From NCBI RefSeq assembly GCF_001548055.1, contig NZ_AP014724.1:248001-312000 (forward strand): a stretch of 64,000 nt of DNA, read 5' to 3'. A model generated the notes under the pieces. It worked only from the letters and a program-made list of their open reading frames with translations. It did no database searches and was not told where the DNA came from. The stretch is from Sulfurospirillum cavolei (GTDB taxonomy: Bacteria > Campylobacterota > Campylobacteria > Campylobacterales > Sulfurospirillaceae). The translations under genes and the position numbers were made by a program. Each line of letters begins with the position of its first letter. Within the stretch, counting starts at the first letter, position 1. Below are positions 30,269 to 47,582 of the stretch, in pieces.

Positions 30269-32251
30269 TTACGTGCGGAACGTTCTTTCGGGTTTGCCGA
30301 AATAATAGCCTTGAAAAAGATCGATTTGAAGCGCTAACGCCTCTTCGTACACTTCTTGGGCGTAGACAAATTCCGCGACCGTTTGAATGCCGATTTTTCG
30401 GGAAAATAAAACGATCGCCTGTACCAAAGCAAGGGCTTTTGGATCGTGCGCGATATGTTGAATCAACGAGCCGTCGATTTTGATAAAATCGGGGGACAAC
30501 TCGAAAACGTAAGCGTAATTGGAGTAGCCCGATCCAAAATCGTCGATGGCAAAACGAACGCCCAAGGTTCTAAATTTTTGTACGAAAGCTTGAACCGTCG
30601 CATAATTTTGAACGCCTTGGGATTCTAAAAACTCGACGACCAGCAACTCGCCCGTAGCGGTTGCTTCGATATGCTCGTAAAGTTCTTTGCAAAACGGGGT
30701 ATTGATCAGATCCAAATAACTCATATTGAGCGAGATACATGTGCGCGTTTTTGCGGCAATATCGATGCTTTTAAAGAGCATCATACGTGAGATTTCGGAG
30801 TATTGGTGGGTTTTGATCGCCGTTTCCAAAAAATCGTTCGGAGCGTAAAAACGTGTCGGATCTTCATCGTCTTGCAGGCGCATTAATGCTTCGTATTTGA
30901 CGATTTTTCCGTTTGCGGCGACGATGGGTTGAAAAAAGGGCATAAAAAGGTCGCATTCAATCCCGCGTGCAATTTTATTTTTCCAATAAACGTTTTTTTC
31001 TATCTCTTGTTTGATGGCGTGAATATCGCGGTAAAAGACGACATGCGTGTGCGTCTTTTTCGCTTCATTAAGCGCAATGTCGGCAGTGCCGAGTACGTTC
31101 TCTTTCTCGAATGAAACGCCGATGCAAATATCAAGATAAAGAGGCTCTTTGAGCGATCGCACGCGGATCGTATGCTCTTTGACGCGGGTAAGAAGTTCTT
31201 CGATCATTTTAGAACATGCATCGCTATCATAGGAGCTATCGGAGCGTAAAATGACGAATTCGTCTCCGGAAAGTCGGTAAAGATCCAAACGGTGGCGTTT
31301 TGTAAACTCTTGCAGCAGCGTGGAAAAAAGTACCAAGACTTCGTTACCGACTTCCACGCCGTAGAGTTCGTTGATGGTGCGAAAAGCGTTAATATCGATC
31401 AGCAAAACGGCGGGTGAACGCACCAATGCGATGTCTCTTAAAAGAGCGGTTCGGTTGTAAAGTTTGGTCAGATGGTCGACGTAAAGTCTATTTTCCAACT
31501 CTTTGTAGAGTTGAATGATCTGTAAAACGATTTTATAAATTAAAAAAGAGACAAGGGTGAGCGTGAGTGCGATCAGAATGATTTCTCCGACATAGTAGTA
31601 ACGATCTTCGCGCACTTTTTGTTCTTGAAACGTTTCAAGATAGCGATTTTCGGTCTCTAGCGCAGTTTCGACTTCGATCTCGTAACGGCTAAGGAGTGCA
31701 GAGACGACTTGGTTTTCGCCTCGAATGTGAAACGCCAAGGTATTGAGGTCGGGATGATTTTGCGCAAAATAGCGATCGCGCGTCTCTAGGAGTTCTAAAA
31801 TACGGCGTAATTTTTCTCGAATCTCTCCGTGATGAAACAAGAGCGTTTGCGGCGATCCTAAAGAGAGTGAAGGCGTATAGGTTTTGGTAACGCTTTGCGT
31901 GCTATTATGCGATAAGGGGATACTCAGCGTTCCGCCTTGTGCAAGGGTCGTGTTTTTTTCAAGAAGGCGATCCAAAGTCGCTTCGATCGATGCTGCGATT
32001 TCGAGGCGTTGTTTTTCGGTTTTGGTTGCGGCGGAAAGTCCTAAGAAATTGATTTGAAGCCGATGAATGTCTTCGAGCAAAAAGCGGGTAATGTCGATTT
32101 TTTGACGCAAGTTGTCTGATTTGCGATCGAGCGTACGTGAGAGCGTATGAAAAAACTCATGCACGCCGATTACGAGAATCCCGCTTGCGATAAAGCATGA
32201 AAAAAGCCATACGAGATATTTAAACAGTACTTTGTTGACGATATACCCCAT
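30269..32251 (-). CDS. GGDEF/EAL cyclic-di-GMP protein with periplasmic sensor
   Basis: At 660 residues it has two membrane helices (about 8-28 and 215-240) around a helical periplasmic domain, then a GGDEF domain with active-site LSGDEFVI (SGDEF variant). The EAL domain follows: YEALMRLQ, SLNMSYLDL, VEFLES, IDDFGSGYSNY and IKIDGSLI. The EAL metal ligands look intact, so hydrolysis is likely. The SGDEF variant may still synthesise c-di-GMP. It lies 15 bp after selB on the same strand, so it may be part of that transcript. Confidence 0.88.
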   Translation of the reverse strand: MGYIVNKVLFKYLVWLFSCFIASGILVIGVHEFFHTLSRTLDRKSDNLRQKIDITRFLLEDIHRLQINFLGLSAATKTEKQRLEIAASIEATLDRLLEKNTTLAQGGTLSIPLSHNSTQSVTKTYTPSLSLGSPQTLLFHHGEIREKLRRILELLETRDRYFAQNHPDLNTLAFHIRGENQVVSALLSRYEIEVETALETENRYLETFQEQKVREDRYYYVGEIILIALTLTLVSFLIYKIVLQIIQLYKELENRLYVDHLTKLYNRTALLRDIALVRSPAVLLIDINAFRTINELYGVEVGNEVLVLFSTLLQEFTKRHRLDLYRLSGDEFVILRSDSSYDSDACSKMIEELLTRVKEHTIRVRSLKEPLYLDICIGVSFEKENVLGTADIALNEAKKTHTHVVFYRDIHAIKQEIEKNVYWKNKIARGIECDLFMPFFQPIVAANGKIVKYEALMRLQDDEDPTRFYAPNDFLETAIKTHQYSEISRMMLFKSIDIAAKTRTCISLNMSYLDLINTPFCKELYEHIEATATGELLVVEFLESQGVQNYATVQAFVQKFRTLGVRFAIDDFGSGYSNYAYVFELSPDFIKIDGSLIQHIAHDPKALALVQAIVLFSRKIGIQTVAEFVYAQEVYEEALALQIDLFQGYYFGKPERTFRT

Positions 32252-32266: not shown

Positions 32267-34102
32267 TTAGATTAAAATTCTCCGCGTGTCCTCTTTTTTA
32301 ACGTCGTCAAAGTTATCGAGATAGTCAAGGTAAGCGATCAAATATTTACGGCTCATTTCGAAATGTTCTTTAAAGGATTTAATATCGATCCCTTTTTCGT
32401 TGCGCATAATGTCTCGCATATGTTTAACCATTGTACTCAAAGCCGTAGCACTAACGAAAAGATTGTGTTCCAAACGGATCACTTTTTTTGCACGCGTGAG
32501 GCTTTTAAGCGCATCGTCGCCCATTTTTCGATCGATGTCGAGTGCATCGTAGATATTGTACGGTGCGTCGGGCGTGAATGCCGATTTTTCCAAAATTGCG
32601 TAGAGTTTTTCTTCGATCAAGGCTTCGATATTGTCGATGTCGATTTGCGCGTTTTTATAGACGCCGCCGACGAAATCCAGCACGCCCTCGTCGCAGAGTT
32701 GTTGTAAAACGCTCTCCACGAGTGCCGTACTTGCCCATTTGAGTTTGAGCGAAATGGAGCTTGCAGAAAGAAGCGCATAGGCGTTTTTAGCGTAGATCGT
32801 TTTGATAATCCCCTCAAGTTCCGATCGAATCGAATCGGGGTAGAGTACCAAGCCTTTTTGATCGACGAAAATACCTTCCATTGCGTCGGCAATCTCGATA
32901 GCTTCGTCATGGTTGAGTCCGAAGCGTTGGTTGGAAGAGATGAGCCCGAAACCGTGTTTGTGCATCTCAACCAAAAGGGAAAAAGCACTTCGGTAATCTT
33001 TGACATGTAAGGCGTGAAGCAGTTCCAGCTTCGCTTTTTTCTTCATCGGGTCGTTGATAGGATTGAGCACGCGTCCGCCGCCGACCGTTCGCCCTCCGAT
33101 CGCCAAGATAAAAGGTTCGCCGTAGACCAAAAAGAGTGTTTTATTAAAGTGCAGTTTCGCGTAGCCTTGTGTAAAACTCTCTTCGTTTTCGTAGCTCAAA
33201 AGCCGTGCCTCGACTTGCTTGGTTCCGACGAAAAGGTTGAGTTTGGCGTTGTGTTTGAGCGTGTGTCCGCCGATACTTTCAACCCAGACATCGGCAACGT
33301 CGAATCCTCGGATAAACCCTTTTTTACAAAAGAGCAAGCCTTTTTCAAACGAGGCTTTTTGCGCGCTTTGAATGTTAATCGCGGTTCGTTGCGAACTAAA
33401 CGCTTCGGCAACGTCTTGCTCGTGGACTTGGAGGTTTCTGACGGTAAATTCTTTATCAATTTCGGGAGCGTAGAGTTTCTCGCCGACTTTGATCGTTCCG
33501 TCTAGAACCGTTCCGGTCACGACGGTTCCGGCACCTGCGATCGAAAACGAGCGATCGACGTAGTAGCGAAACAGACCGTTACTTTTTTTAGGCTCGCAAG
33601 GCAAGGCAAAGAGGGTGTTTTTAAGTGTCTCGATCGAGGAAGGCTCATAAATGCTTACCGGAACGATAGCCCTTAGTTGAAGGTGTTTGAGCGTTTCAAA
33701 ATAGCTTTCGATCTCTTCGCGTCGAAGCGCAAGCGTTTCGCCGGAAGCCAGGTCTTTTTTGCTCAAAGCGACGACGATGTGTTTAAGCCCTAAGAGATTG
33801 AGAATCTCCAAATGCTCTTTGGTTTGGGGCATCATACCTTCATTGGCGTCGATGACGACCAGTCCCGCGTCAAAGCCGAAAGCTCCGGCGATCATATTTT
33901 TTAACAGTTTTTCATGGCCCGGTACGTCGATAAACGCAACGTTGGTCGTGTTGTTGTGCATGGAAGAAAAACTCAGGTTGATGGTAATTCCGCGGCGTTT
34001 TTCTTCTTCTAAACTATCGCCCTCAAATCCCGTCAGTGCGGTAATAAGAGCCGTTTTACCGTGGTCGACGTGACCGGCGGTTCCGACGATGATATACTCC
34101 AT
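32267..34102 (-). CDS. selB: Selenocysteine-specific elongation factor SelB
   Basis: This 611-residue GTPase has G1 GHVDHGKTALI, G3 DVPGHEKL and G4 LSKKDLAS, followed by EF-Tu-like barrels. Several winged-helix domains at the C-terminus bind the SECIS hairpin of the mRNA. SelB delivers Sec-tRNA(Sec) to in-frame UGA codons. Its start directly follows the selA stop codon. The client in this window is FdhA at 41.8 kb. Confidence 0.96.
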   Translation of the reverse strand: MEYIIVGTAGHVDHGKTALITALTGFEGDSLEEEKRRGITINLSFSSMHNNTTNVAFIDVPGHEKLLKNMIAGAFGFDAGLVVIDANEGMMPQTKEHLEILNLLGLKHIVVALSKKDLASGETLALRREEIESYFETLKHLQLRAIVPVSIYEPSSIETLKNTLFALPCEPKKSNGLFRYYVDRSFSIAGAGTVVTGTVLDGTIKVGEKLYAPEIDKEFTVRNLQVHEQDVAEAFSSQRTAINIQSAQKASFEKGLLFCKKGFIRGFDVADVWVESIGGHTLKHNAKLNLFVGTKQVEARLLSYENEESFTQGYAKLHFNKTLFLVYGEPFILAIGGRTVGGGRVLNPINDPMKKKAKLELLHALHVKDYRSAFSLLVEMHKHGFGLISSNQRFGLNHDEAIEIADAMEGIFVDQKGLVLYPDSIRSELEGIIKTIYAKNAYALLSASSISLKLKWASTALVESVLQQLCDEGVLDFVGGVYKNAQIDIDNIEALIEEKLYAILEKSAFTPDAPYNIYDALDIDRKMGDDALKSLTRAKKVIRLEHNLFVSATALSTMVKHMRDIMRNEKGIDIKSFKEHFEMSRKYLIAYLDYLDNFDDVKKEDTRRILI

Positions 34103-35440
34103 TTAACGTCCTAAAAGTGTGGTCATAATTGTGATAAGGCGTGTTTCGTTACTCGGCAGTATTGTACGAAAGTCGAGTAAAAACGCGTCGTTTTCGATGC
34201 GCCCGATCACGTGATTTTCGCGAAAAGCACGCTCTAAATGCGTTGCTTTTCCTTTGATACGTAAAGCGACGGTCGGAAAACGTCGGTTGGGAAGCGTGCC
34301 TCCGCCCATATAGGTTTCGCTTTCCACGACCTCGCAAAGCGTTTTGCCGACTTTGTTCCGCACGAAAGCGGCGCGTTTTTTAAGCTCTTCGACGCTACGG
34401 AAAAGAAGCCAAAGCGTCGGAATCTCTTCGTAGGCTTCTTGCAAATAGGCTTTGATGCTCTCTTCGAGTAAACTCAAGGTGATTTTATCGACGCGAAGCA
34501 TGCGTAAGAGTTGGTTTTTTTTCAATGCGGCGATCAAATCCGCGCGTCCGGCGATAATGCCCGCTTGCACGCTTCCAAAGAGCTTGTCGCCGCTAAAGCT
34601 GATCAAAGAGGGCTGACATGTTAGAATTTGCGAGAGCGAATGTTCGCGGTTACCAAGGTGATAAGGCAGTTTGGGAACATACCCGCTTCCAAGATCGTAA
34701 TAGTCCAAAAGACCGCGGTTGGCGGCAAGGTGTCGCAGGCTTTCGTAATCGACGCTTTCGCTAAATCCTTCCATCGAAAAGTTAGACTGATGCACTTTCA
34801 TCAACATCGCCGTACGGTCGTTGATGGCATCGGCATAGTCAAGGATTTTCGTTTTATTGGTCGCACCCACTTCGCATAAAATCGCACCGCTTTGCTTCAT
34901 GACTTCGGGAATGCGAAAACTTCCTCCGATTTCGACCAATTCGCCGCGGGAAACCACGACTTCTTTGTTTTTGGCAAAGGTGTTGAGTACCAAAAAAACG
35001 GCGGCGGCGTTGTTATTGACGATGAGAACGTCTTCAACGTTTAAAAGACGTTTGAGATGATTCCCGACATGTTCGTAACGTTCTCCGCGGCACCCAAGTT
35101 CCAAGTTGTATTCTAAATTGGAGTAGTTGCAAATGACTTCGCTTGCGCGATTTAAGAGTGTTTTGGAGATAAGGCTTCGGCCCATATTGGTGTGTAAAAT
35201 GACGCCTGTTGCGTTAATGAGCGGTTTTAGCGAAGGCTCTAACGCTTCGTCGTAAGCCGCTTTGATGGAGCGGATTAACGCCTCTTCGTCAAAACCGTGA
35301 ACCGTTTGATTGATCAGTTTTGCGCGTAAATCGTCGATCTTTTGACGAATAATCTGTACCAAAAGATGTTCGTTAAGTCCTTGTAGCACGGGATGCGCTA
35401 GGCATTTGTCGACTTTAGGAAGGGTGCGAAGCGGATTCAT
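34103..35440 (-). CDS. selA: L-seryl-tRNA(Sec) selenium transferase SelA
   Basis: At 445 residues it is a PLP-dependent enzyme that converts seryl-tRNA(Sec) to selenocysteyl-tRNA(Sec) with selenophosphate. Markers are LINATGVILHTNMGRSLI near residue 78, the PLP lysine in SFSGDKLFGSVQAGIIAG, and GGGTLPNRRFPTVAL. Its start overlaps the response-regulator stop by 4 bp. selC (tRNA-Sec) and selD are not in this window. Confidence 0.96.
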   Translation of the reverse strand: MNPLRTLPKVDKCLAHPVLQGLNEHLLVQIIRQKIDDLRAKLINQTVHGFDEEALIRSIKAAYDEALEPSLKPLINATGVILHTNMGRSLISKTLLNRASEVICNYSNLEYNLELGCRGERYEHVGNHLKRLLNVEDVLIVNNNAAAVFLVLNTFAKNKEVVVSRGELVEIGGSFRIPEVMKQSGAILCEVGATNKTKILDYADAINDRTAMLMKVHQSNFSMEGFSESVDYESLRHLAANRGLLDYYDLGSGYVPKLPYHLGNREHSLSQILTCQPSLISFSGDKLFGSVQAGIIAGRADLIAALKKNQLLRMLRVDKITLSLLEESIKAYLQEAYEEIPTLWLLFRSVEELKKRAAFVRNKVGKTLCEVVESETYMGGGTLPNRRFPTVALRIKGKATHLERAFRENHVIGRIENDAFLLDFRTILPSNETRLITIMTTLLGR

Positions 35441-36111
35441 GCTTCCTCCGGTAAGGGAAGTTTGGTTTCGTCGAAAAGGTATTTTTTGTTTTGTATTTTG
35501 GTCAAAATCCCCTGATCGCCGAGCTGTTTAAAGAGTTTGATGACGGTCGGTTTACTGACGTTGACCTGCTCCATAATTTCGCTGTAGGAGTAGTTGAGCA
35601 TATTGTCGTTATCGAGATTTTTGATGATAAAACGGATAATTTCGACTTGCTTGCTGTCGGTGACCGCGGAGATGGTTTTGATGATGTTGTACGAACGCTC
35701 GATCTCTTTGGCCTGAATTTTCGGCAGTAAAACGTCGTGCAAGGCGTTAAGCAGTTCTTTGATGTTGACGGGCTTGATCAAATAGTTATCGACGTGAAGT
35801 TTGATAGCATCGAGAAGGTATTCGGTGTCGCTAAACGCGGTGGTGACGATGGAGGGCATTTCGATCTCCAAATCGTGTTTGAGCGTTCGCAAGAAGTCGA
35901 GTCCGTTGCTGTAGCGAAGGTGAATATCGGCGATAATAACGTCGATTTTTTCGGTTTTGATGATCTCTAACGCTTCGTCGATCGTTTGCACCGGATAGAT
36001 TTTTTTCACGAAATCTTCCAAGACCGAAGTCGTATGTTTGAGAAGATCCGCTTCGTCTTCGATATACAAGACGTTAAAAGTGCCTAAAAGTTCGAAATTA
36101 CGCTTATTCAT
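35437..36111 (-). CDS. Response regulator with C-terminal winged helix
   Basis: At 224 residues the receiver domain has YIEDEADLL, the phosphorylated Asp in DVIIADIHLRYSNG and LIKPVNIKEL. The output domain (about 150-215: YSEIMEQVNVSKPTVIKLFKQLGDQG) is a GntR/MarR-like winged helix rather than OmpR type. It overlaps both its kinase gene (8 bp) and selA (4 bp), so its level is tied to SelA translation. It may control the divergent formate dehydrogenase operon. Confidence 0.87.
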   Translation of the reverse strand: MNKRNFELLGTFNVLYIEDEADLLKHTTSVLEDFVKKIYPVQTIDEALEIIKTEKIDVIIADIHLRYSNGLDFLRTLKHDLEIEMPSIVTTAFSDTEYLLDAIKLHVDNYLIKPVNIKELLNALHDVLLPKIQAKEIERSYNIIKTISAVTDSKQVEIIRFIIKNLDNDNMLNYSYSEIMEQVNVSKPTVIKLFKQLGDQGILTKIQNKKYLFDETKLPLPEEA

Positions 36112-37720
36112 CCTCTGCCTCGCCTAAATCAATCTGTTTTTTGGGTATTTCGATCGTAAACATGGTGCAATCGAAAAAATCTTTCGTCCCGAGTTTGTGG
36201 CGAAGGTTTTTACATGTAATCTTTCCGTGCATATGTTTTTCGACCATTTGTTTTGACATGTAAAGCCCGATTCCCGTGCCTACGCTTTTGTGTTTTGTCG
36301 TAAAATAGGGGTCGAACACTTTGGGTATTATATCACTTTTTATTCCGCCGCCGTTGTCGATGACGTTGACGAAAATACTCTCTTCATTTTGTTTGGAAAT
36401 AATGTGAATGATCTTTTCGTGCAGTTCCGTTTTACCCGCTAAAATGTCTTTAGAATTTCCGATAAGGTTTAACAACACGTGAATCAGCTCGTTTTTAAAG
36501 CCAAATGCTTCAATGTCGTTGCGAATGAAAAACCGTAGCGTGATCTCTTCTTTTTCCAGTTGGTATTTGGAAAGATCGATCGCTTTTTGGATCACGTTTT
36601 GAATGTGAAACGTCTTTTTACTTTTATTAGGGTTGAAGAACGTCCGAAAATCTTCCAAAGTTTCGGACATATTTGACGAGAGCAGTTCGGCGTCTTTGAC
36701 GCGAGAGCTTACGAACGCTTCATCGAGTTTTCCCGCGTAGAATTTACTCTCAAAACTTTGAATAATCATCATCAAAGAGCCTAAAGGTTGTCGCCATTGG
36801 TGCGCGATATTTTGAAGCATCTCTCCTAAAGAGGCGAGGCGGGCTTGTTGGAACATAATATTGTCTTTTTTACGGCTGTTCTCGACTTCGCGCTTGATGC
36901 GTTGCTCTAGCGAGTTGTTCAAGTCTCTAAGTTCATGCGTCTTTTCGGCGATATTTTCTTCCAAGTAGTTGTGAATGTTCTTAAAATGGTTGATGATGAT
37001 TAAGAGCACCATCGTGATAAAAAAGAAGATCATACCGATGAGTAAGATGAGCATATAGGTACTGGTTTGAAACAGGCTGTCGTTGATCTGCTTTTCGGAG
37101 ATCGATTGTTTGAGGTGGCTCGTAATCAAACTGGAAAGATAGATGTTTAAAGAGTTGGTCGAGAGCATAATCGAGTCGATCATCGCCGCGGCTTCTTGGG
37201 TTTTTTGCGCTTTGAGTCGATCAATCAAAAGCGTGATTTGCGCGTCCAATTCGTCCATTTTGAGGGAAATTTTTTCGACGATACCTTGCTGAAAAACGTT
37301 TTTCTCGGGTTTGTTCGGCGTCACCAAGAAGAGGCTGAGCCAACGACTCGCAAAGTAGGGAACACCTCCGATATGCATATTGGCGGCTTTTTGATAACTT
37401 TGCCACTGTTTTCGAATAATTTGTTGCGAAAGGTAAATGACCTCGATCGCATCTTGGCTACTGATTTGTTTGTCTTTGATGTCGCTCAGGGTTTCGGAGA
37501 TATTAACGCGGTAGATGTCTTTGATCTCTTCCAAATCGACCTGCGGAAGTGTGTGCTTTTGAAACAACGTTTCGTAGTCGTACTTGAGCGCAAAAATAGA
37601 AACGAACATCAAAAAGCCGATGGTCATTGTGCCGCTGAGAATAATCGTAATGAGTATTTTCGTTTTATTGCTAAATTTGATCGTTTCGAGTTTTTGGTTG
37701 ATAAACTGAACTAGCGTCAT
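36104..37720 (-). CDS. Membrane sensor histidine kinase of a three-component system
   Basis: 538 residues from ATG 37720. Two membrane helices (about 20-42 and 220-245) flank a helical periplasmic domain. A coiled coil leads to the HisKA box SLGEMLQNIAHQWRQPLGSL (H-Q-W-R-Q-P type) and an HATPase with NAIxx-like NLIGNSKDIL, NGGGIKSDI and GTGIGLYMSKQMVEKHM. It starts 1 bp after the binding-protein gene stops. The binding protein probably presents a ligand to its periplasmic domain. Confidence 0.88.
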   Translation of the reverse strand: MTLVQFINQKLETIKFSNKTKILITIILSGTMTIGFLMFVSIFALKYDYETLFQKHTLPQVDLEEIKDIYRVNISETLSDIKDKQISSQDAIEVIYLSQQIIRKQWQSYQKAANMHIGGVPYFASRWLSLFLVTPNKPEKNVFQQGIVEKISLKMDELDAQITLLIDRLKAQKTQEAAAMIDSIMLSTNSLNIYLSSLITSHLKQSISEKQINDSLFQTSTYMLILLIGMIFFFITMVLLIIINHFKNIHNYLEENIAEKTHELRDLNNSLEQRIKREVENSRKKDNIMFQQARLASLGEMLQNIAHQWRQPLGSLMMIIQSFESKFYAGKLDEAFVSSRVKDAELLSSNMSETLEDFRTFFNPNKSKKTFHIQNVIQKAIDLSKYQLEKEEITLRFFIRNDIEAFGFKNELIHVLLNLIGNSKDILAGKTELHEKIIHIISKQNEESIFVNVIDNGGGIKSDIIPKVFDPYFTTKHKSVGTGIGLYMSKQMVEKHMHGKITCKNLRHKLGTKDFFDCTMFTIEIPKKQIDLGEAEDE

Positions 37721-37721
37721 C

Positions 37722-38924
37722 TTAATACTCGTATTTTTGGATGATTTCAAATTTACCTTGACGGTAATTGGACAGATAAACGTTATTGAGCAGTTGGGAA
37801 TTTTTATAGTGTAAAGGGATATTGTCCAGACTGTTCTTTGGTAAGGTTTTGAGGGCATGCAGGAATTTAGATCGGCTTAAAGGCCCTTGTACCGCTTTTA
37901 ACGCTTTGACGAGTGCTTTTGCGGACAAATAGGCTTCAAAAGAGACTAAAGAGGGCTTTTCTTCGGGGTAGTAAAAGCTAAGATGGTCTAAATACTCGGC
38001 CGCTTCTTTAGAGTAAAAATCATCGTACGAAGGGACGGTTTGCGAGAAAAGAATATTCTCTCCGTTGCCGTGAAGCTCATGCATCAAAGCATCGGCATTG
38101 ACAAACGAAATCGGGCAGAAGATGATTTTTTGAGGGCAGCACTCTTTCACTTTCTCGATAAAACGTGCTGTCGGTTTGTATGCGCCCACCAAAATGATGG
38201 CTTCGGGTTTTGCCGCTTCGATTTCATGAATCGCATGGCGAATGGAGAGCGTATTGCGTTTGTACGTTCCTTCGGCGGAGAGTATCAAGTTGCGTTTGGA
38301 AAGTGCATGCGAAAGAGCGATATAACCCTCTTCGCCGTAATCGTCGTTTTGGTAAAAAATGGCAAACCGCTTTACGTTTAAAACGCTGGTTAGGTGTTCG
38401 ACCAACGCATCGACCTCTTCTTCGTAAGAACTGCGAAAATTCACGATATTGTTCGCCTCTTCGGTGCGTAAGAAAGAAGCACCCGTGTAAGGAGCGATGA
38501 AAGGCGTACCGCTCTCTTCGACCAACGGTAAAACACGTTTCACCGTCGGCGTACCGACAAAGCCGAAGAGAGCGAAGACATTGTCTTTATTAAGTAAGGT
38601 AAGCGTGTTACTCCACGTGTTTTCAGGTTCGTATTTATCGTCGTAGCTGATGAGCTCGACGTTCTTACCTTGGATGCCGCCTTTGGCGTTGGTGTAGCTA
38701 AAATAGGTATTGGCACCCACGACGATGTCTTTGCCCAAATGGCTGTTGATGCCGCTGAGCGGTAGAGATGCCCCTAAGACGATCGATTCTTTGGGCATAG
38801 CAGAGTGATAGAGCGTAAAAATTCCCGTAAGCGCGACAAAACTGACTAAAATAACGGTAGCGACTAGGAAAACTTTATTAACCAATGGTAGCCTCTGTGC
38901 GTTGGGATAAATGATTATAGCCAT
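37722..38924 (-). CDS. Membrane-anchored Leu/Ile/Val-type periplasmic binding protein
   Basis: At 400 residues it has a long uncleaved-looking signal anchor (VNKVFLVATVILVSFVALTGIF) and then a type I binding-protein fold (Peripla_BP_6). Markers include LGASLPLSGINSHLG, NVELISYDDKYEPENT, TPFIAPYTGAS and RFAIFYQNDDYGEEGY. There are no ABC transporter genes nearby, and the next genes are a kinase and regulator. This is the layout of binding-protein-dependent signalling (as in LuxP/LuxQ or TctC-type systems). Ligand unknown; formate is smaller than usual for this fold. Confidence 0.85.
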   Translation of the reverse strand: MAIIIYPNAQRLPLVNKVFLVATVILVSFVALTGIFTLYHSAMPKESIVLGASLPLSGINSHLGKDIVVGANTYFSYTNAKGGIQGKNVELISYDDKYEPENTWSNTLTLLNKDNVFALFGFVGTPTVKRVLPLVEESGTPFIAPYTGASFLRTEEANNIVNFRSSYEEEVDALVEHLTSVLNVKRFAIFYQNDDYGEEGYIALSHALSKRNLILSAEGTYKRNTLSIRHAIHEIEAAKPEAIILVGAYKPTARFIEKVKECCPQKIIFCPISFVNADALMHELHGNGENILFSQTVPSYDDFYSKEAAEYLDHLSFYYPEEKPSLVSFEAYLSAKALVKALKAVQGPLSRSKFLHALKTLPKNSLDNIPLHYKNSQLLNNVYLSNYRQGKFEIIQKYEY

Positions 38925-38992: not shown

Positions 38993-39042
38993 ATAAGTAA
39001 ACGTGATAATTTTTGTCTTGTTAAGATCGCTTTAAAGGTTTT

Positions 39043-40770
39043 ATGCTTACAATACGGTCAATAAACATTTACCAACTGGACGTTGAAATGCATCAAGAAT
39101 TTGCTTACTTTAGTACAACACCGCTTGACTTTCCTCTAGGCGACGAGATTGACGTCGTAAACGCTTCAACCGAAGCGGAGTACATCGTTTCTAACGATCC
39201 GTGCGTCAACGCGGTTATTTATGCTCCTGAAATTAACTTCTATCTTACACGCTCCAAAGACGTTTTGGCTCAAAAAATTCGAAATGTTTCCAAATTGTAT
39301 GCCATTCGCGCCGTCGGATTTGACTACGCGCAAGACCAAGACTATGCCCAAGAGGTCGGCACAAAGTTACTTATCGTAACGGAAGATCGTGAAAAAGAGG
39401 CATTAAAAGATATATTGTCGGCTGAAGGTTATAGCGTTGTTACGCTTTTACCATCAATGATTTTAGACGTGAACGGGCATATCGGCGACTTAGTCGTGGT
39501 TTTGAAAAAAGACGATGCGATATTAGAATTGAACTGCGATCAAATACTTTGGTGGAACGCTCCGAGTTTTGCGATGAAACAAAGCGGCGTTTACGATCCT
39601 TCGCTGCTCGGCGAAGAGGCGGCGTTGAAAAAAATGCGTACGAATACCGGTACGTATCGCTACAAAAACTTTATCAATTACGACAGTTCGATTTGCCAAT
39701 ACCATGAGCGTCGCGAAGAGGTGTGCGGTAAATGTGCCGAAGTGTGTCCGACGGTAGCCATCTTAAAAGAAGACGAAACGAAGCATTTAGTTTTTTCGCA
39801 TATCGATTGCCACGGTTGCGGCGGCTGTATTAGCGTTTGTCCGAGCGGTGCTTTGGACTATACGCAGATGCCAAGACGCGCATTTTCTTATATGAGCGAA
39901 TACTACGAAGGAACGATTCCTTTAATTATTCCTCAAAAAATGGATTTGGAGTCTATTACGATTCCTTTGGAAGAAAACGTTTTACCGATGATGATCGAAG
40001 GCGAAAAATACCTTCACGAAGCGCATATGCTCAATTTGCTTCAAACATGCGGCAATCCGATCGTGTTTTATACCGATTTTATCTCCAAAGGTACGGGCGA
40101 CGTTATTCGCATTATCAATGAAATTTTTGAACGCAAATACGCTAAAAAAGCAATTTTCGTTTGCCAAAACGCACAAGAATTAAGTCACGCTTTCGAGACG
40201 ATGCAAGCTTTGCCGGAGTGCCGATACGGCATTAACGAAGAGGGTTTACGCAAACGCGAAATCTTTTCGGCGCGTTTGGCACATTTGGTCGGCGATGAGG
40301 ATTTGGGTACGGTTCGAACCGGCGAACATGTCCATTACGGCGATATTCGCATCGATGCGGAAAAATGTACGTTGTGTTTAAGCTGTGTGGGTGCTTGTAA
40401 CGTTAGAGCTTTGACGGCGCATCCGGAAGATAATTCGTTACGTTTCAACGCATCGATTTGTACGAATTGCGGTTATTGCGAAGCGACCTGTCCGGAAAAA
40501 GAGTGCTTGAGCGTGATTAAAGATGAACTTCGACTTAGCCCGACATGGTTTTCCCAACGCATCATGGCGCAAGACGAACTTTTCAAATGCACCGAGTGCG
40601 GCAAAGAGTTTGCAACGGCAAAAGCGGTACGTAAAATAGCCGCCATTATGACGCCTCTGTTTTTAGGCGATCCGGTAAAACTCAAGACGCTTTATTGCTG
40701 TCCCGATTGCAAAGCAAAGGTTATTTTTAGAGCTTCCGTAGAAGCAAACGTTAACGAAACGGTAGGGTAA
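39043..40770 (+). CDS. Polyferredoxin-like 4Fe-4S protein of the fdh operon
   Basis: At 575 residues it has one ferredoxin-type pair in the middle (CGKCAEVCPTVAI, CHGCGGCISVCPSGAL) and another near the C-terminus (CTLCLSCVGACNVRAL, CTNCGYCEATCPEKECL), plus zinc-type CTECGKEF...CCPDCKAK. Proteins of this kind head fdh operons in Campylobacterota and probably shuttle electrons or help assemble the enzyme in the cytoplasm; no signal peptide is present. ATG 39043 has AAAGG close by. ATG 39088, where the conserved part (EFAYFSTTPLDFPLG) begins, is an equally good start. Confidence 0.82.
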   Translation: MLTIRSINIYQLDVEMHQEFAYFSTTPLDFPLGDEIDVVNASTEAEYIVSNDPCVNAVIYAPEINFYLTRSKDVLAQKIRNVSKLYAIRAVGFDYAQDQDYAQEVGTKLLIVTEDREKEALKDILSAEGYSVVTLLPSMILDVNGHIGDLVVVLKKDDAILELNCDQILWWNAPSFAMKQSGVYDPSLLGEEAALKKMRTNTGTYRYKNFINYDSSICQYHERREEVCGKCAEVCPTVAILKEDETKHLVFSHIDCHGCGGCISVCPSGALDYTQMPRRAFSYMSEYYEGTIPLIIPQKMDLESITIPLEENVLPMMIEGEKYLHEAHMLNLLQTCGNPIVFYTDFISKGTGDVIRIINEIFERKYAKKAIFVCQNAQELSHAFETMQALPECRYGINEEGLRKREIFSARLAHLVGDEDLGTVRTGEHVHYGDIRIDAEKCTLCLSCVGACNVRALTAHPEDNSLRFNASICTNCGYCEATCPEKECLSVIKDELRLSPTWFSQRIMAQDELFKCTECGKEFATAKAVRKIAAIMTPLFLGDPVKLKTLYCCPDCKAKVIFRASVEANVNETVG

Positions 40771-40775
40771 ACACG

Positions 40776-41495
40776 ATGCAAACCAATGATCAATCCATCC
40801 ATCAAGCAAGAGCGTTGTATTACACGTTTTTTGCAAAAATATTAAGTTTCAATGCTCAGGCAGACAAATATGCGAATCTAGCAGATTTATTGAAGATTTT
40901 TATCGCCAATCCACTCGATGAAGACTCCGATGCGGCGTTTCGTTCAATCGATTCGTCTTTACGTGCCAAAGGGGGTTGCGAAGCGCTCAAACAAGAATAC
41001 GACGAGGTGTTCGTCTCTCCTGAAAGCTCGTTCATTCCGATAAGTGCATCGTATTACGACGAAGGGCGTGATGATGGCCAAAAAAGGGTCAAAGCGGCAG
41101 GTTTGGTCTTTCGTTCCAAATTTCGTAAAAACGATTCGGTATGCAACGATTCGGAAGATCAAGTGCTTTTCTTATTTCAGTTGATGAGCCGTTTGATCGA
41201 AGCGGGTGTTGCGGGCGATGAAGAGAGCTTAACATTGGCGAAAGAGGTTTTTGCCGAAATCATCAACGATTTTATCGACGAGTTTACCGCCTTGTTATTT
41301 CAACACGAAAAAAGCTTTTTCTATCAAAATACGGCGATCGTTTTAAAAACATTTATTGCTTTTGAACGCTTGTTCTTACATATCGAAGCTTCGCATAAAA
41401 TCGCCAGCGAAGAGAGGGCAAGTGCGGTCATTCAAAAAGACAGAAAACCTTTAACACAAAGGGTAAGACGTAACTTGGACGAAATCGTCTTGTGA
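40776..41495 (+). CDS. TorD/DmsD-family molybdoenzyme chaperone
   Basis: This 239-residue all-helical protein begins with the family pattern HQARALYYTFFAKIL. Its central LKQEYDEVFVSPESSFIPISASYYDEG is the TorD-type binding region. Such chaperones hold the Tat signal of a molybdoenzyme until cofactor loading is complete; the likely client is FdhA. It starts 5 bp after the Fe-S gene. Confidence 0.88.
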   Translation: MQTNDQSIHQARALYYTFFAKILSFNAQADKYANLADLLKIFIANPLDEDSDAAFRSIDSSLRAKGGCEALKQEYDEVFVSPESSFIPISASYYDEGRDDGQKRVKAAGLVFRSKFRKNDSVCNDSEDQVLFLFQLMSRLIEAGVAGDEESLTLAKEVFAEIINDFIDEFTALLFQHEKSFFYQNTAIVLKTFIAFERLFLHIEASHKIASEERASAVIQKDRKPLTQRVRRNLDEIVL

Positions 41496-41506: not shown

Positions 41507-41561
41507 TATGAATATGCCAAAATCGCATATTCATAGGGGTTTCCAAAGCACGCGCGTGCTT
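41507..41561. promoter_or_regulatory. Two hairpins in the gap before the Tat protein and FdhA
   Basis: TATGAATATG (41507-41516) pairs with CATATTCATA (41526-41535), and AAGCACGCGCGTGCTT (41546-41561) is a perfect palindrome. They lie between the chaperone gene and the structural genes, where they could attenuate read-through or define a processed 5' end for the fdhA message. Confidence 0.5.
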
Positions 41562-41624
41562 GTTTTGAAAACTCTTTTTAAGAGTCGATACGAAAACCTA
41601 TTCCTAAACAGGAGGTCTGAGAAG

Positions 41625-41828
41625 ATGCACGAGAACAGAAGGGACTTTCTAAAAAAAGCCCTCGGGACGACGGCAGTGGTAGCAACTGCCGGTGCAAGCG
41701 GCGTTTTGGCAAGCTCGAAAGAGAGTGCCAAAGGCGCAAACGGTGTCGTTTATGGGAAATCTCCGAAAAAAGAGATTTTGTATAAAGAGACGGATGCATG
41801 GAAGCTCTACTATAAGAGATCCTATTAA
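41625..41828 (+). CDS. Small Tat-signal protein of the fdh operon
   Basis: 67 residues from ATG 41625, with a perfect AGGAGG ten bases upstream. The N-terminus has the twin-arginine motif RRDFLKKA and a hydrophobic stretch to about residue 30 (ASGVLASS). A short tail, KEILYKETDAWKLYYKRSY, follows. Such small Tat proteins precede fdhA in related genomes and may be an extra subunit or maturation factor; function unknown. An upstream open frame lacks a ribosome site. Confidence 0.75.
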   Translation: MHENRRDFLKKALGTTAVVATAGASGVLASSKESAKGANGVVYGKSPKKEILYKETDAWKLYYKRSY

Positions 41829-41842
41829 TCACGGGAGATGAG

Positions 41843-44707
41843 ATGAGTAAAACAGAAAACCCCATACTCTCCTCTAGCAAAATCGGAAGACGCTCATTTT
41901 TAAAAATGGCGGCTCTGGGAAGTGCTAGTTTTGGAGCGGGAAATCTTCTAGCCAAAGAAGATGCGATCAGAGAGGCGAGTGCGGAAGAGGTTAAAAACCC
42001 GTTCCCAGGCTCAAAAACGGTTAAAACGATCTGCTCGATCTGTTCGGCAGGTTGCGGCATCAAAGCCGAAGTGCATAACGGCGTATGGGTAAGACAAGAA
42101 CCCGCACACGACCACCCGATCAGCGAGGGAAGCCACTGTTGTAAGGGTACGGATCAAATCGATTTGACCAAGTCCAAACAACGTATCAAGTACCCGATGA
42201 AAAAAGAGAATGGACAATGGAAACGTTTAACGTGGGAACAAGCGTTAAATGAGATCTCTTCTAAAATGTTAAAAATTAGAGAAGAGAACGGTCCTGACAC
42301 ATTGATGATGTTGGGTTCGGCTAAATTTAACAACCAACAATCGTATTACTTTAGAAAATTTGCCGCGTTTTGGGGCACAAATAATATCGATCACGTAGCT
42401 AGAATCTGACATAGCGCTTCTGTTGCCGGTGCGGCAAATACATGGGGTTATGGTGCTATGACAAATCACTTTGGTGATGTTGTTGAGAATTCTAAGTTAA
42501 TTATGATGGTCGGAGCCAACTCTGCCGTTGCCAATCCAATCGGATTTAAACATTTCCTACAAGCCAAAGATAGAGGCGCGAAGTTGATCGTCGTCGATCC
42601 TATCTTTACAAGAAGTGCTGCTAAAGCGGATATTTACGTGCGTATTCGTCCTGGTACTGACATTGCGTTTGCCTATGGACTTTTACATGTAATCTTTAAA
42701 AACGGTTGGGAAGATAAAGATTTTATCGAGCATAGAACTTATGCGATGGATCAAATCAGAGCCGAAGCTGCTAAATGGACGCCTGAAGAGACCTCCAATG
42801 TTACCGGTGCTTCTATTGAGCTAATCCAACAGGTTGCAGAACTTTACGCTAAAACCAAACCCGCAAGCATTGCATGGTCACTCGGTATTACGCAACACTC
42901 TGTAGGAAGCTCCAATACGCGTATCCTTCCAATTCTTTCACTTGTTACTGGTAATGCGGCACGTCCGGGAGGCGGATGTAATATTATCCGCGGTCACGAT
43001 AACGTTCAAGGTGCTACCGATATGGCAAACCTCTCTGACAGTTTACCGGGGTACTACGGTTTGGATAAAGCCGCATGGCAGTACTATTGTAAAACATGGG
43101 GTGTTAGCTTCGAGTCTATGCAAAACCGTTTCCACCCTGATCTTGACGATAAGGGTGAGCGTAAATGGATGCACGCCAAAGGTTTCTCACTTGCGAAGTG
43201 GTGGCAAGGTGTTTTACAAGAAGAAAAAACGACCTCTTCCGCTCCGATTCGCGTGCTTTGGGTACAAGGAACGGGAATTACCTCGATGTCTCAGCAGGTG
43301 AAAATCAAAGAAGCCATCGATAAGCTTGACATGTTAATCGTAGCCGAACCGTTTGTGAATGAAGCGGCAATTATTACCGATCGAAAAGACGGTATCTATA
43401 TCTTGCCGGTTGCAACGCAATTTGAGTGCGAAGGAACGCTTTCTGCTACCAATCGTTCCGCCCAATGGCGTTCCCAAGTCGTTAAGCCGCTGTATGAAAG
43501 CAAAGCCGATCATGAAGTGATGTTCGAGTTTGCGAAAAAATTCGGATTTTACGATGAGTACGTCAAGGGTATGAAAATGCGTGCCGAAAACGGTAACGTC
43601 GTTCAGTATAAAAACGATTTTGTATGGCCGGACGATGCGGTACGTGAGATTGCTCGTACGGTTAAAAGTATCGGACTTTCCGGTTGGACGCCCGAGCGTC
43701 TGCGCAAACATCAAGAAAACTGGCATCTCTTCGATCCGTTGACGCTCAAAGGTCGCGGCGAAATGGAAGGCGAATATTACGGACTTCCGTGGCCGTGCTG
43801 GGATGAAAAACATCCGGGTTCGCCGATCCTTTACGATGCCTCTAAACCGGTCAATGAAGGCGGCTTGGGCTTTCGAAATCGTTTCGGTGTTGAGCATAAC
43901 GGTGATAATTTACTTGCCGATGAAACCGTGACGCTTCCGGGACAAAAAATCCAAGGCGGTTACCCACAACTTACCAAAGCCAATATCGAAAAAGTGCTCG
44001 GTATTACGCTTAGTGAAGAAGAAAAAGCGCAAATGGGACCAAGTTGGGCGATGGACTTTAGCGGTATTATTCAAAAATACGCTCGAGAGTATGGCGTTTG
44101 CGTCTACGGAAATGCAAGGGCACGTACGATTGTTTGGGAATTCCCAGATCCCGTACCGGTTCATAGAGAGCCTATTCACTCTCCACGTTGGGATTTGGTA
44201 CAAAAATATCCGGCACTACCGGATCAAGCCAATAACTTTAGGGTTGCAACACGTTACATCTCTGAGCAAACCAAACAAGACTGGTCCAAAGAGTTCCCGA
44301 CGATCCTAACGTCTATGCGCTTAGTCAACCTCTCAGGGGCTGGTATGTTAGAGCGAACGAGTAAATACCTCTCAAGCATTACGCCGGAGATGTTTGCCAA
44401 TATTCACCCAGATCTTGCTTCCAAATATGGCATCGAAGATAAGGGAATGATGTGGATTCACGCGCCTCAGGGTACGAAGATTAAGGTACGGGTTCACTAC
44501 AACCGTAGCGTAACGCCGGATCGTATTTGTATGCCGTACAACTTTGCGGGTATTATGCAAGGGGTCGATTTGAGTGCAAATTATCCTGAAGGCGCACGTC
44601 CGTATACGATCGGTGAAAGTTCCAATACGATCGTTAACTACGGCTTTGACCCGATTACCCAAATCTCAGAGTTCAACGCGGGTCTATGCCGTGTGGAAAA
44701 AGCGTAA
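41843..44707 (+). CDS. fdhA: Formate dehydrogenase catalytic subunit FdhA, selenocysteine-containing
   Basis: At 954 residues it reads through an in-frame TGA at 42407-42409, which encodes selenocysteine 189 in the context VARI-U-HSASVAG. The N-terminal Tat signal is GRRSFLKMAALGSASFG. The [4Fe-4S] motif is CSICSAGCGIKAEV...HCCKG. The molybdopterin domains include RGHDNVQGATDMANLSD and a C-terminal MPYNFAGIMQG region. The enzyme oxidises formate to CO2 at the periplasmic face and passes electrons to FdhB. The two frames around the TGA are both conserved, so this is recoding and not a nonsense mutation. selA and selB lie next door. Confidence 0.97.
42407..42440 (+). promoter_or_regulatory. Sec UGA codon and bacterial SECIS-like hairpin in fdhA
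   Basis: Directly after the UGA, TTGCC (42423-42427) pairs with GGCAA (42433-42437) around the loop GGTGC. A G-G-U in the apical loop about 19 nt after the UGA matches the geometry that SelB recognises in E. coli fdhF. The lower stem is less clear, as is usual for bacterial SECIS elements. Confidence 0.75.
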
Positions 44708-44716
44708 GGAGACACC

Positions 44717-45349
44717 ATGGAAAATACCAATAGCCGATTAAAATTCTATTGCGATACGGATCGCTGTATCGAATGTTTTGCATGTGTGGTTGCGTGCCAA
44801 AATGCTCACGAATTACCCGTGGGCATTGCCCGCCGTAAAGTCGTGACGCTGGGCGACGGCGTCGAAGGTCAAGAGACGTCGATCTCGATTGCGTGTATGC
44901 ATTGTGCCGACGCACCGTGCTCGCAAGTCTGTCCGGTGGATTGTTTTTATATCCGAGCCGACGGTATCGTGCTTCACGATAAAGAAAAATGTATCGGATG
45001 CGGATACTGCTTGTACGCATGCCCGTTCGGTGCTCCGCAGTTCCCGCGTGATGGCGTTTTCGGCGCCAAAGGGGCGATGGACAAATGTACGATGTGTGCC
45101 GGCGGTCCATTAGAGACCAACTCCGAACACGAGCGAGAACGTTACGGTCAAAACCGTATCTCGGAAGGTAAAGTACCCGTATGTGCGGCAATGTGTTCGA
45201 CCAATGCGCTTCTCATCGGAACTTCCGAGAAAGTGTCCGAGCTTTACCGTACCCGTGTGCTCGCTCGCGGTCAAAGCAAAGAGGCGAACAACTCGTATAT
45301 TTGGAATATGGCGTATAACAAACAAGGTAGAAAGGGGCTAACGCAATGA
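44717..45349 (+). CDS. fdhB: Formate dehydrogenase iron-sulfur subunit FdhB
   Basis: At 210 residues it carries four cysteine clusters for [4Fe-4S] centres: CIECFACVVACQ, CMHCADAPCSQVCPVDC, CIGCGYCLYACPFGAP, and CTMCAGGP with a later CAAMC. It passes electrons from FdhA to FdhC. There is no signal peptide, so it should be exported with FdhA by the Tat pathway. It follows fdhA after 9 bp. Confidence 0.95.
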   Translation: MENTNSRLKFYCDTDRCIECFACVVACQNAHELPVGIARRKVVTLGDGVEGQETSISIACMHCADAPCSQVCPVDCFYIRADGIVLHDKEKCIGCGYCLYACPFGAPQFPRDGVFGAKGAMDKCTMCAGGPLETNSEHERERYGQNRISEGKVPVCAAMCSTNALLIGTSEKVSELYRTRVLARGQSKEANNSYIWNMAYNKQGRKGLTQ

Positions 45350-46245
45350 AGAAACGATGGATAGTACTTTTAAGCACACTGCTAAGTATGTCGTCTCTTT
45401 ATGCCATTAGCGTGAGTCAATTCGATAGTCCGTTGTACGGAACGGCGATGCTCAATGCGATTCCCAATTACCATGCGTTTGGAGAAGTGTTTACGCTTCT
45501 TCAACGCGAATGGTTCTGGAAAGGCTTTTTGATCGCACTGTTTCTGGTTCCCGTTGCGGGAGGCATTCACTATTTACTGATCGGACCTAAAGTGTTTTCG
45601 CATCACGGAAAGAAGGTTTTTGCGTTTAGCGTTTTGATGCGCGTCATGCACAATCTTGCGGCCCTTTCGTTTTTAGTCATCGTGCCTACGGGCTTTGTTA
45701 TGGCATTCGGAGATTTTTTCGGCGGCGGTATGTTTGTGAGGATTTGTAAGAACTTACACGGTTTGGCAACACCCGTGTTTGCGATTACGGTTCTTCCGAT
45801 GATTATTGCTTGGATTAGGGATATGTTCCCTAATAACGACGACGTAAAATGGATGATGATCGTGGGCGGTTACCTCTCCAAAGAGAAAAAACCCGTCCCC
45901 GCAGGTAAGTTTAACGCCGGACAAAAAGCATGGTTTTGGATCGCGATGCCAGGCGGTATCGTGATGATTATTACCGGAGCGTTGATGTTCTTTTTAAACA
46001 AGGATCTCTCACCGGTTGCTACGATGTTGGGTATGAGCCAAATCGACCTGCTACGTCTCAGTGCGATCGTTCACAATATCTTAGGTATGGTCGTCGCTAC
46101 GTTCTTTATGGTGCATGTCTATATGGCGGCGATTGCCATCAAAGGTGCGATTCATTCGATGATCACGGGTTATAAAGAAGAAGAGGAAGTCGCCATCCTT
46201 CACAGCTCTTGGTACAAGAAGCTCAAAGAAGAGGGCAAGGTTTAA
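45346..46245 (+). CDS. fdhC: Formate dehydrogenase cytochrome b subunit FdhC
   Basis: At 299 residues it has an N-terminal signal or first helix, then four core membrane helices. His residues suited to haem b ligation are in LMRVMHNLAALSFLVI, NLHGLATPVF, AIVHNILGMV and MVHVYMAA. This is the family of FdnI-like gamma subunits, which reduce menaquinone. It overlaps fdhB by 4 bp and is followed by a strong terminator. Confidence 0.94.
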   Translation: MKKRWIVLLSTLLSMSSLYAISVSQFDSPLYGTAMLNAIPNYHAFGEVFTLLQREWFWKGFLIALFLVPVAGGIHYLLIGPKVFSHHGKKVFAFSVLMRVMHNLAALSFLVIVPTGFVMAFGDFFGGGMFVRICKNLHGLATPVFAITVLPMIIAWIRDMFPNNDDVKWMMIVGGYLSKEKKPVPAGKFNAGQKAWFWIAMPGGIVMIITGALMFFLNKDLSPVATMLGMSQIDLLRLSAIVHNILGMVVATFFMVHVYMAAIAIKGAIHSMITGYKEEEEVAILHSSWYKKLKEEGKV

Positions 46246-46271
46246 TTAGCCTTACATGTAGGCTTACATGT

Positions 46272-46305
46272 CAAAGAACGAAGCGATTTTTTTCTTCGTT
46301 CTTTG
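46272..46305. terminator. Bidirectional terminator between fdhC and the DUF190 gene
   Basis: Perfect 12-bp arms CAAAGAACGAAG (46272-46283) and CTTCGTTCTTTG (46294-46305) around a T-rich 10-nt loop. It lies between convergent genes. Confidence 0.75.
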
Positions 46306-47021: not shown

Positions 47022-47582
47022 TTAAGAGCGATATTTTTCAACAAGCGTTTGAATACCTCTAATAAACATATTAAAGCTTATCGAAGTATTAGCAGCTATA
47101 TTCAAATGTGGAGCAATGTCTCTTGATCCTCCAACTTTTTGATAAAGCTTTTTTGTAATTTTTTCAAGTTCCTCAGCTGCATTTGCCAATAGGTCTGGAT
47201 TGCGAAATTTAGTGCTTGTTTGCGATTGTTGTAATTTGATTTTTAGACCTTTTTCAACAGCCCCTAAATCACCTAAATACCAACTTTCAAGCTCATGACA
47301 AGCTATTCTCACAAGAGTGTCTTCTCTGCCAGCATTTTTGCATTTTGCAACCAAGTTTTGTTTAATGACTTCACAATCACCAGAATCTTGGTCTCGCAAA
47401 ACAACAAAATATGAATCAGGTGTTTGCCATCCTTTTATTTTAAGTTGTAGACGCTTTTCAAGATCACTTTTTCCTTCAAAAATGATAAATTTCGTATGAA
47501 TTTCAGAGGGTAAAAGCCGTGGTAAAATACCTTGAATCATCTCTTTTGCAGATTGCTCTTCGAGTAGAAAAACCAAAGTCAT
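47022..47582 (-). CDS. TOPRIM-like protein (DUF4276-like), defence-module candidate
   Basis: At 186 residues, an acidic residue in [13 protein letters not shown] near the N-terminus and [11 protein letters not shown] near residue 58 form the E...DxD pattern of TOPRIM domains. [12 protein letters not shown] near 94 is typical of DUF4276 proteins. These are probable nucleases or nucleic-acid-processing effectors. It overlaps the upstream AAA-ATPase gene by 4 bp and forms a two-gene unit with it. Base use is more AT-rich than the fdh genes nearby. Confidence 0.75.

Follow-up and report, generated by a model that had tools for sequence, protein, structure and literature searches.

The window analyzed here is a 64,000 bp stretch of the Sulfurospirillum cavolei genome (C1:248001-312000 of a 2.70 Mb genome assembled as one contig, NZ_AP014724.1), whose closest named relatives belong to Sulfurospirillum. 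It contains a formate dehydrogenase (Fdh) operon of the selenocysteine (Sec) type and, divergent from it, an operon in which genes for a periplasmic binding protein (PBP), a membrane histidine kinase (HK) and a response regulator (RR) are followed by selA and selB. Based on gene order, conservation across related genomes and two DNA elements in the shared intergenic region, it is likely that PBP, HK and RR form a sensor dedicated to fdh, which would activate the fdh operon, autoregulate its own operon and take selAB along with it.

The sensor operon lies on the minus strand and, in order of transcription, consists of the PBP gene (Peripla_BP_6; 37722..38885), the HK gene (HATPase_c; 36104..37720, likely ATG at 37720 with the start inferred from relatives, in an open reading frame (ORF) of 36104-37858), the RR gene (35437..36111, with domain matches to a receiver and a winged helix), selA (34103..35440; selenocysteine synthase, TIGR00474, 518.7 bits) and selB (32267..34102; selenocysteine elongation factor, TIGR00475, 295 bits). 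The close packing of these five genes given in the preliminary description is borne out by their coordinates (PBP-HK gap of 1 bp, HK-RR overlap of 8 bp, RR-selA overlap of 4 bp, selA-selB gap of 0 bp), and domain models agree with their assignment. The PBP, HK and RR genes are adjacent and co-oriented as in three-component systems, and no ATP-binding cassette permease or ATPase that would make the PBP part of a transporter is encoded among the operon genes. The start of selA overlaps the stop of the RR gene (ATGA) and a GGAGGA-like ribosome site lies within the RR gene; because of these two features, RR and selA are probably coupled in translation. A GGDEF-EAL gene (30269..32251, minus strand) begins 15 bp after selB, as previously described. 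It was rejected as a part of the system: among the 15 family loci that show the whole of selB plus at least 1 kb beyond, only 3 have this gene behind selB.

The region between the two operons is larger than the listed ORFs imply. In relatives, the PBP starts at the residue aligned to a TTG at 38885, and the listed start (ORF 37722-38924) lies upstream of the minus-strand TATAAT (38914..38919) that sequence and conservation in the genus indicate as the putative -10 of the sensor-sel operon. The fdh ferredoxin-type protein of relatives starts at approximately ATG 39088, the likely true start here (39088..40770, plus strand), and the palindrome described below falls inside its listed ORF. Both listed starts are probably mis-set and, with both codons corrected, the intergenic region is approximately 200 bp rather than 118 bp.

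The same 150 genomes were searched for the PBP, SelA, the fdh ferredoxin and the regulator, and the results were combined. Any PBP match was found in 63 genomes, from which G018, G019 and G036 (paralog only) and G064 and G079 (26-28% identity) were left out, giving 58 genomes with an ortholog of the sensor PBP. The ferredoxin gene is found in 56 of these 58 and SelA in 54. As stated in the preliminary description, the sensor diverges from its client: sensor and ferredoxin genes are divergent within 700 bp of each other in 50/58 genomes, while selA is on the same strand within 4 kb of the sensor in 40/58. The exceptions to the first arrangement are G022, G038, G040 and G137, where sensor and fdh are on different contigs (the first three possibly through assembly breaks), G001, where the PBP match begins at a contig edge and no ferredoxin match was found, G024 (3.3-kb gap), G109 (the rest of fdh lies between) and G050 (no ferredoxin match). 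Because the order PBP-HK-RR-SelA-SelB recurs across the window's family and in a second family (f10), gene packing and order exceed chance.

Named relatives with the sensor beside fdh include Arcobacter sensu lato, Sulfurovum, Sulfurimonas, Nitratifractor and one Nautiliaceae genome, and fdh is the only near-constant neighbour of the sensor. Families f9 and f16 keep the sensor next to fdh, with selAB either on another contig or at a distance of between 8 kb and hundreds of kb; in the Campylobacter-type genome G053 selAB directly abut fdh and there is no sensor. These two patterns point to sensor and fdh as the older partnership, which selAB joined or left. The ferredoxin and SelA occur without the sensor in 16 genomes. 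In several Arcobacter-type loci, SelD, SelA and SelB are encoded 3-5 kb downstream, with a tRNA-Sec in both loci scanned, and the G109 locus (L032:257-19984) holds fdh, the sensor, yedF, a double-cubane reductase with its activator, selD (with an in-frame TGA), tRNA-Sec, selA and selB. The earlier proposal that the selenocysteine machinery is tied to the sensor stands in that two families have sel genes within the sensor operon; this link is second to that between sensor and fdh.

A tree of 34 binding proteins places the fdh-linked ones in one group, together with that of G050, with weak support (87/60). The orthologous sensor of G050 is encoded behind a ThiF-type gene and moaA, and our searches of this genome found neither SelA nor the fdh ferredoxin. 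At that level of tree support, G050 would count as a case of the same sensor away from both sel and fdh, which had been named beforehand as a finding that would speak against the proposal and is thus realized in part; a paralogous sensor also lies elsewhere in most members of the family. In two Sulfuricurvum genomes fdh is followed by tRNA-Sec and this by SelA-SelB-PBP-HK-RR; a palindrome precedes fdh and another precedes selA. This operon was rejected as an ortholog, as the tree places its PBP on a long branch apart from the fdh clade, so that the joining may have been independent; that placement suggests that a sensor of this kind joined fdh and selAB more than once.

For analysis of the shared promoter region, 69 sensor-fdh intergenics were collected (divergent pairs 20-700 bp apart, identical ones taken once, cut at tblastn hits), of which 65 were left after removal of near-identical ones. 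Two elements stand out. A palindrome, GGTAAA-N6-TTTACC, is present at 11/12 or better in 46/69 intergenics, against a mean of 0.05 in dinucleotide shuffles; the window's own copy (GGTCAA-N6-TTTACC, 39056..39073, plus strand, 11/12) is not among the 46 because of the cutting at tblastn hits. A direct repeat, TTAAG-N6-TTAAG, is present at 9/10 or better in 62/69 (3.7 in shuffles), and in the window reads TTAAG-N6-TTAA (39021..39035, plus strand), 12 bp before the putative fdh -10, TACAAT (39048..39053). The distance from repeat to -10 is exactly 12 bp in 39 of the 41 intergenics with a -10-like hexamer in reach, a count made with a finder that looks up to 20 bp away and prefers the hexamer closest to 13 bp, and so favours that range. 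This fixed distance indicates that the repeat occupies the -35 position of the predicted fdh promoter, the usual place of a polymerase-recruiting regulator. In several f9 and f10 genomes the palindrome adjoins the repeat on its upstream side. A scan with promoter and terminator consensus models did no better than on shuffled sequence.

Both elements are tied to the sensor. In L152-L165, 14 sequences upstream of fdh operons that have no sensor next to them, the exact repeat is absent throughout and no palindrome scores 11 or better; three reach 10. Eight of these 14 are from genomes in which no related regulator was matched at better than 1e-20 either. Their comparison with the 65 sensor loci gives Fisher p values of 4e-4 (palindrome) and 1e-4 (repeat), which are optimistic owing to shared ancestry. 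When fdh copies unlinked to the sensor were considered (second ferredoxin matches, counted only above 45% identity), an 11/12 palindrome was found before all three clear ones, namely copy 2 of the S. cavolei genome and the copies in G028 and G144, with 2, 0 and 0 of 1000 shuffles, respectively, reaching the score. The G137 copy, also unlinked to the sensor and outside these three, has a 10/12 palindrome that 20/1000 shuffles reach. Upstream of S. cavolei copy 2 the elements are arranged as in f9/f10, with the palindrome, then TTTTAAG-N5-ATAAAG and TATAAT; as this upstream region is not homologous to that in the window, its palindrome is an independent occurrence. The copy itself, TAT-fdhA-fdhB-fdhC, matches window 41626-46275 to C1:1163406-1168055 at 99.96% identity over 4650 bp with differing upstream sequence, the product of a recent duplication or gene conversion.

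We propose the following route for the signal. The exported type-I PBP, likely anchored by an N-terminal helix, would bind a small molecule in the periplasm and signal via the portion of the HK that is helical and faces the periplasm; the HK would then phosphorylate the RR (the acceptor, by position, would be D62). The winged helix of the RR would act on the shared intergenic region, activating fdh through the direct repeat at -35. From this region it would also regulate its own operon, and the GGTAAA-N6-TTTACC palindrome would provide a second contact. With selA and selB probably coupled in translation downstream of RR, SelA and SelB output would rise along with the consuming enzyme. The packing of the genes, their conservation, the two elements, the link of these to the sensor and their occurrence at unlinked fdh copies can be read directly from sequence. 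We infer that the RR is the protein that binds these elements, that its effect on fdh is positive, that the operon is co-transcribed and what the PBP might bind. The idea that an external ligand sets the supply of both enzyme and selenocysteine machinery fits the retention of the sensor beside fdh and the presence of sensor-linked promoter elements at unlinked fdh copies, and is weakened by the secondary place of the sel link.

The AlphaFold2 model of the PBP (predicted local distance difference test score (pLDDT) of 91) has 4kv7 and 3lop as closest folds; their titles name no ligand, and the fold comparison did not resolve one. Because the client is fdh and several PBP arginines are invariant, a carboxylate such as formate is our leading guess, a tentative one. 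The chances are evenly balanced that the ligand is instead a selenium compound, an amino acid or an aromatic or organic acid, and fdh one output of a broader electron-donor response. Structure titles within the fold family name branched-chain amino acids, amides, urea and aromatic acids, the G050 sensor sits with moaA, and two candidate targets discussed below, the double-cubane reductase and YedF, are selenium-linked by family name or in Lin 2015 (PMC5322559). Against this alternative stands the position of fdh as sole near-constant neighbour.

Several further observations weigh against a dedicated activator working through both elements. The exact repeat TTAAG-N6-TTAA is present in 47/65 non-redundant intergenics and missing from the rest. 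In the window's family the palindrome lies just after the -10, a spot more usual for a repressor, and promoters of the Nautiliaceae-type family f16 keep sensor and repeat without the palindrome. For the C-terminal part of the RR, modelled as a winged helix (pLDDT 79), the best folds include CodY, CRP and MarR-type proteins (E-values 0.002-0.02), and all Foldseek matches have E-values above 0.001; in favour of the main reading, the weak CRP-like matches would fit a 5-N6-5 palindrome. Palindromes also precede an [FeFe] hydrogenase gene (G000, G002 and G022) and an HD-GYP gene (G000 and G010). Ownership of the palindrome is not unique, since the same genome encodes a paralogous sensor (C1:2617596-2621007; L051) with its own regulator; its PBP is 36% identical, and a paralog is present in nearly every family member. 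Finally, against a strong switch, Goris 2015 (PMC4585668) describes the main Fdh2 of S. multivorans as abundant on pyruvate too and suggests that it is constitutive, although the values given for FdhA2 are higher on formate (9.1-9.3 on a log scale) than on pyruvate (8.0-8.9); the gene order of Fdh2 (FdhI, B, A, one gene, chaperone) matches this locus.

Some of these observations would also be explained if the palindrome belonged to another regulator, paralogous or of CRP/FNR type, with the fdh RR using the direct repeat only. The hydrogenase and HD-GYP sites and the f16 promoters fit such an assignment, as does the paralogous sensor operon, which has the same palindrome upstream, followed by TTAAG. 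This last site also fits a shared recognition helix, as the SKPT stretch of that helix is invariant in 22/22 aligned regulators, including the S. cavolei paralog. Moreover, in f9 and f10 genomes the fdh-type regulator is the only full-length one of its type among the matches listed, and the elements are still present, and no exact palindrome occurs anywhere in the genome of G018, which has the paralog but lacks both fdh and its sensor (a single genome carries little weight). We regard ownership by another regulator as rather improbable. Downstream of the paralogous sensor, a peptidyl-prolyl isomerase-like gene and an ammonium-transporter-like gene were identified by eye.

That the sensor regulates fdh only, with selAB receiving read-through and having a constant promoter of their own, such that selenium supply would be independent of the ligand, is less probable still: selAB unlinked to the sensor in f9 and f16, selA beside fdh without a sensor in the Campylobacter-type genome, and the unlinked selC and selD of S. 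cavolei (selC with an ordinary -10 and no palindrome) are set against the 4-bp RR-selA overlap with its ribosome site inside the RR gene, the 40/58 genomes with selA close by on the same strand, and the Sulfuricurvum sensor, which lies outside the fdh clade and is again clustered with sel genes, with palindromes before fdh and selA.

Among the candidate targets beyond fdh and the sensor operon is the double-cubane-cluster reductase (NF040772, 453 bits; cut-off 350), encoded with an activator. The single exact palindrome of the S. cavolei genome lies 145 bp before this gene, and an exact palindrome precedes it in 10 genomes of the genus. Among 10 further double-cubane loci, the upstream region is covered in G001, G012, G013, G017, G023, G025 and G109 and not in G026, G027 and G098. 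Two of the first six have an 11/12 palindrome, one has 10/12, two have none (G017 and G023) and one has a shorter spacer (G025). In G109 none was found before the double-cubane gene, and an 11/12 palindrome lies 81 bp before yedF (YedF TIGR03527 above cut-off). The double-cubane gene was absent at the cut-off used from G009, G024, G033, G051, G070, G089, G018 and G019. In S. cavolei, no palindrome within one mismatch was found before selD or yedF; allowing one mismatch, the genome has 24 palindrome sites against 10 for a reversed-pattern control, so that single sites are weak evidence. The site before the Sulfurospirillum selC (GGTTARAAT) was rejected as a target, being the ordinary -10 of selC itself. 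A wider reading, which we consider unlikely, is that throughout the Campylobacterota an external sensor governs a formate/selenium regulon. Its members would be fdh operons in trans, SelA and SelB, the sensor's own genes and, depending on the lineage, YedF and the double-cubane reductase. In that case this reductase would be a candidate for a missing reductive step in the supply of selenium, and extracellular control over the machinery for the 21st amino acid would be new.

A leader of approximately 100 bases, GGTCTAAGGCTTAGACATACATGAAGTAGC, is conserved before the double-cubane gene in the genus (L213:14422-14560, corresponding to G000:C1:366422-366560, and L188-L206), and its first part is also found in the f9 genome G109 (L032:16250-16370). 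A search for an Rfam family gave only a chance mir-87 match. The leader is possibly a new structured RNA.

The remaining genes of the plus-strand fdh operon encode a TorD-like chaperone (40776..41495; PF02613), a small TAT-signal Fdh protein (41508..41828; TIGR02811, below cut-off), FdhA (41843..44707), FdhB (44717..45349) and the cytochrome b subunit FdhC (45346..46245). FdhA has an in-frame TGA at the active-site position, as in Sec-type formate dehydrogenases, and the Sec position is an in-frame stop in 26/27 readable FdhA sequences. The exception, a Cys FdhA near a sensor (L038:12752-15547; G069:C1:1564752-1567547), is from a genome that still encodes SelA and SelB. A selenocysteine insertion sequence (SECIS_3) match at 42404-42462 (E-value 1.1e-8) scores 42.6 bits, under the Rfam gathering score of 63, and single-strand folding gave no excess stability at this element. 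SelA and SelB are above the cut-offs of their equivalog models, and the genome has one selA, one selD above cut-off and one tRNA-Sec (selC) above the gathering score, completing the selenocysteine machinery; selD and tRNA-Sec are approximately 35 kb and 56 kb, respectively, from the fdh operon start. Elsewhere in the window (47022-48766) lies a gene pair, possibly a defence pair; judging by sequence, the products would be a small protein resembling DUF4276 and an AAA ATPase whose start is SMC-like.

TorT-TorS-TorR, LuxP-LuxQ and comparable systems couple a binding protein in the periplasm to a kinase in the membrane and to a regulator, next to the operon that they control. The present locus has the same PBP-kinase-regulator layout with its putative target operon next door; it differs in that the PBP is of the Peripla_BP_6 (LIV) type, the winged helix of the RR appears CRP/MarR-like and the operon includes selAB. 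Three-component sensors are already known. None dedicated to a Sec fdh and sharing an operon with SelA/SelB was found in the literature searched, which lacked most subscription papers and Goris 2014, nor in the accessible text of a Campylobacterota regulation review, an epsilonproteobacterial selenoproteome and papers on the genomes of A. butzleri and N. profundicola. According to a 2019 review (PMC6682613), little is known of metabolic regulation in free-living Campylobacterota.

Two selenium-related systems invite comparison. LysR_Se, predicted to regulate selenocysteine genes (Lin 2015, PMC5322559), is likewise encoded beside selA, selB or selD, and a 2-hydroxyglutaryl-CoA dehydratase subunit gene is among those associated with this LysR-like gene adjoining SelA/SelB. 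However, LysR_Se is a one-component regulator thought to sense intracellular selenophosphate, while the sensor described here appears to look outside, and its RR was rejected as a LysR_Se type, having a receiver and winged helix instead of a LysR helix-turn-helix and substrate domain. FdhT/FdhU of C. jejuni (Shaw 2012, cited in PMC6682613 and PMC5322559) also serves a selenium-dependent fdh in the same phylum, and YedF corresponds to FdhU, but it acts post-transcriptionally, via selenium acquisition or use, in contrast to the predicted transcriptional sensor, which Campylobacter-type loci lack.

If the proposed system is correct, a signal from outside would control the supply of a costly amino acid by way of the main enzyme that uses it. 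The analysis provides one defined sensor, a pair of DNA elements mapped to coordinates and a few candidate targets, and cultured Sulfurospirillum or Arcobacter allow testing. Many free-living relatives of Campylobacter keep this sensor beside their Sec fdh; in those families whose sensor operon also includes the genes for selenium insertion, a single external cue may govern the enzyme together with its supply of selenium.

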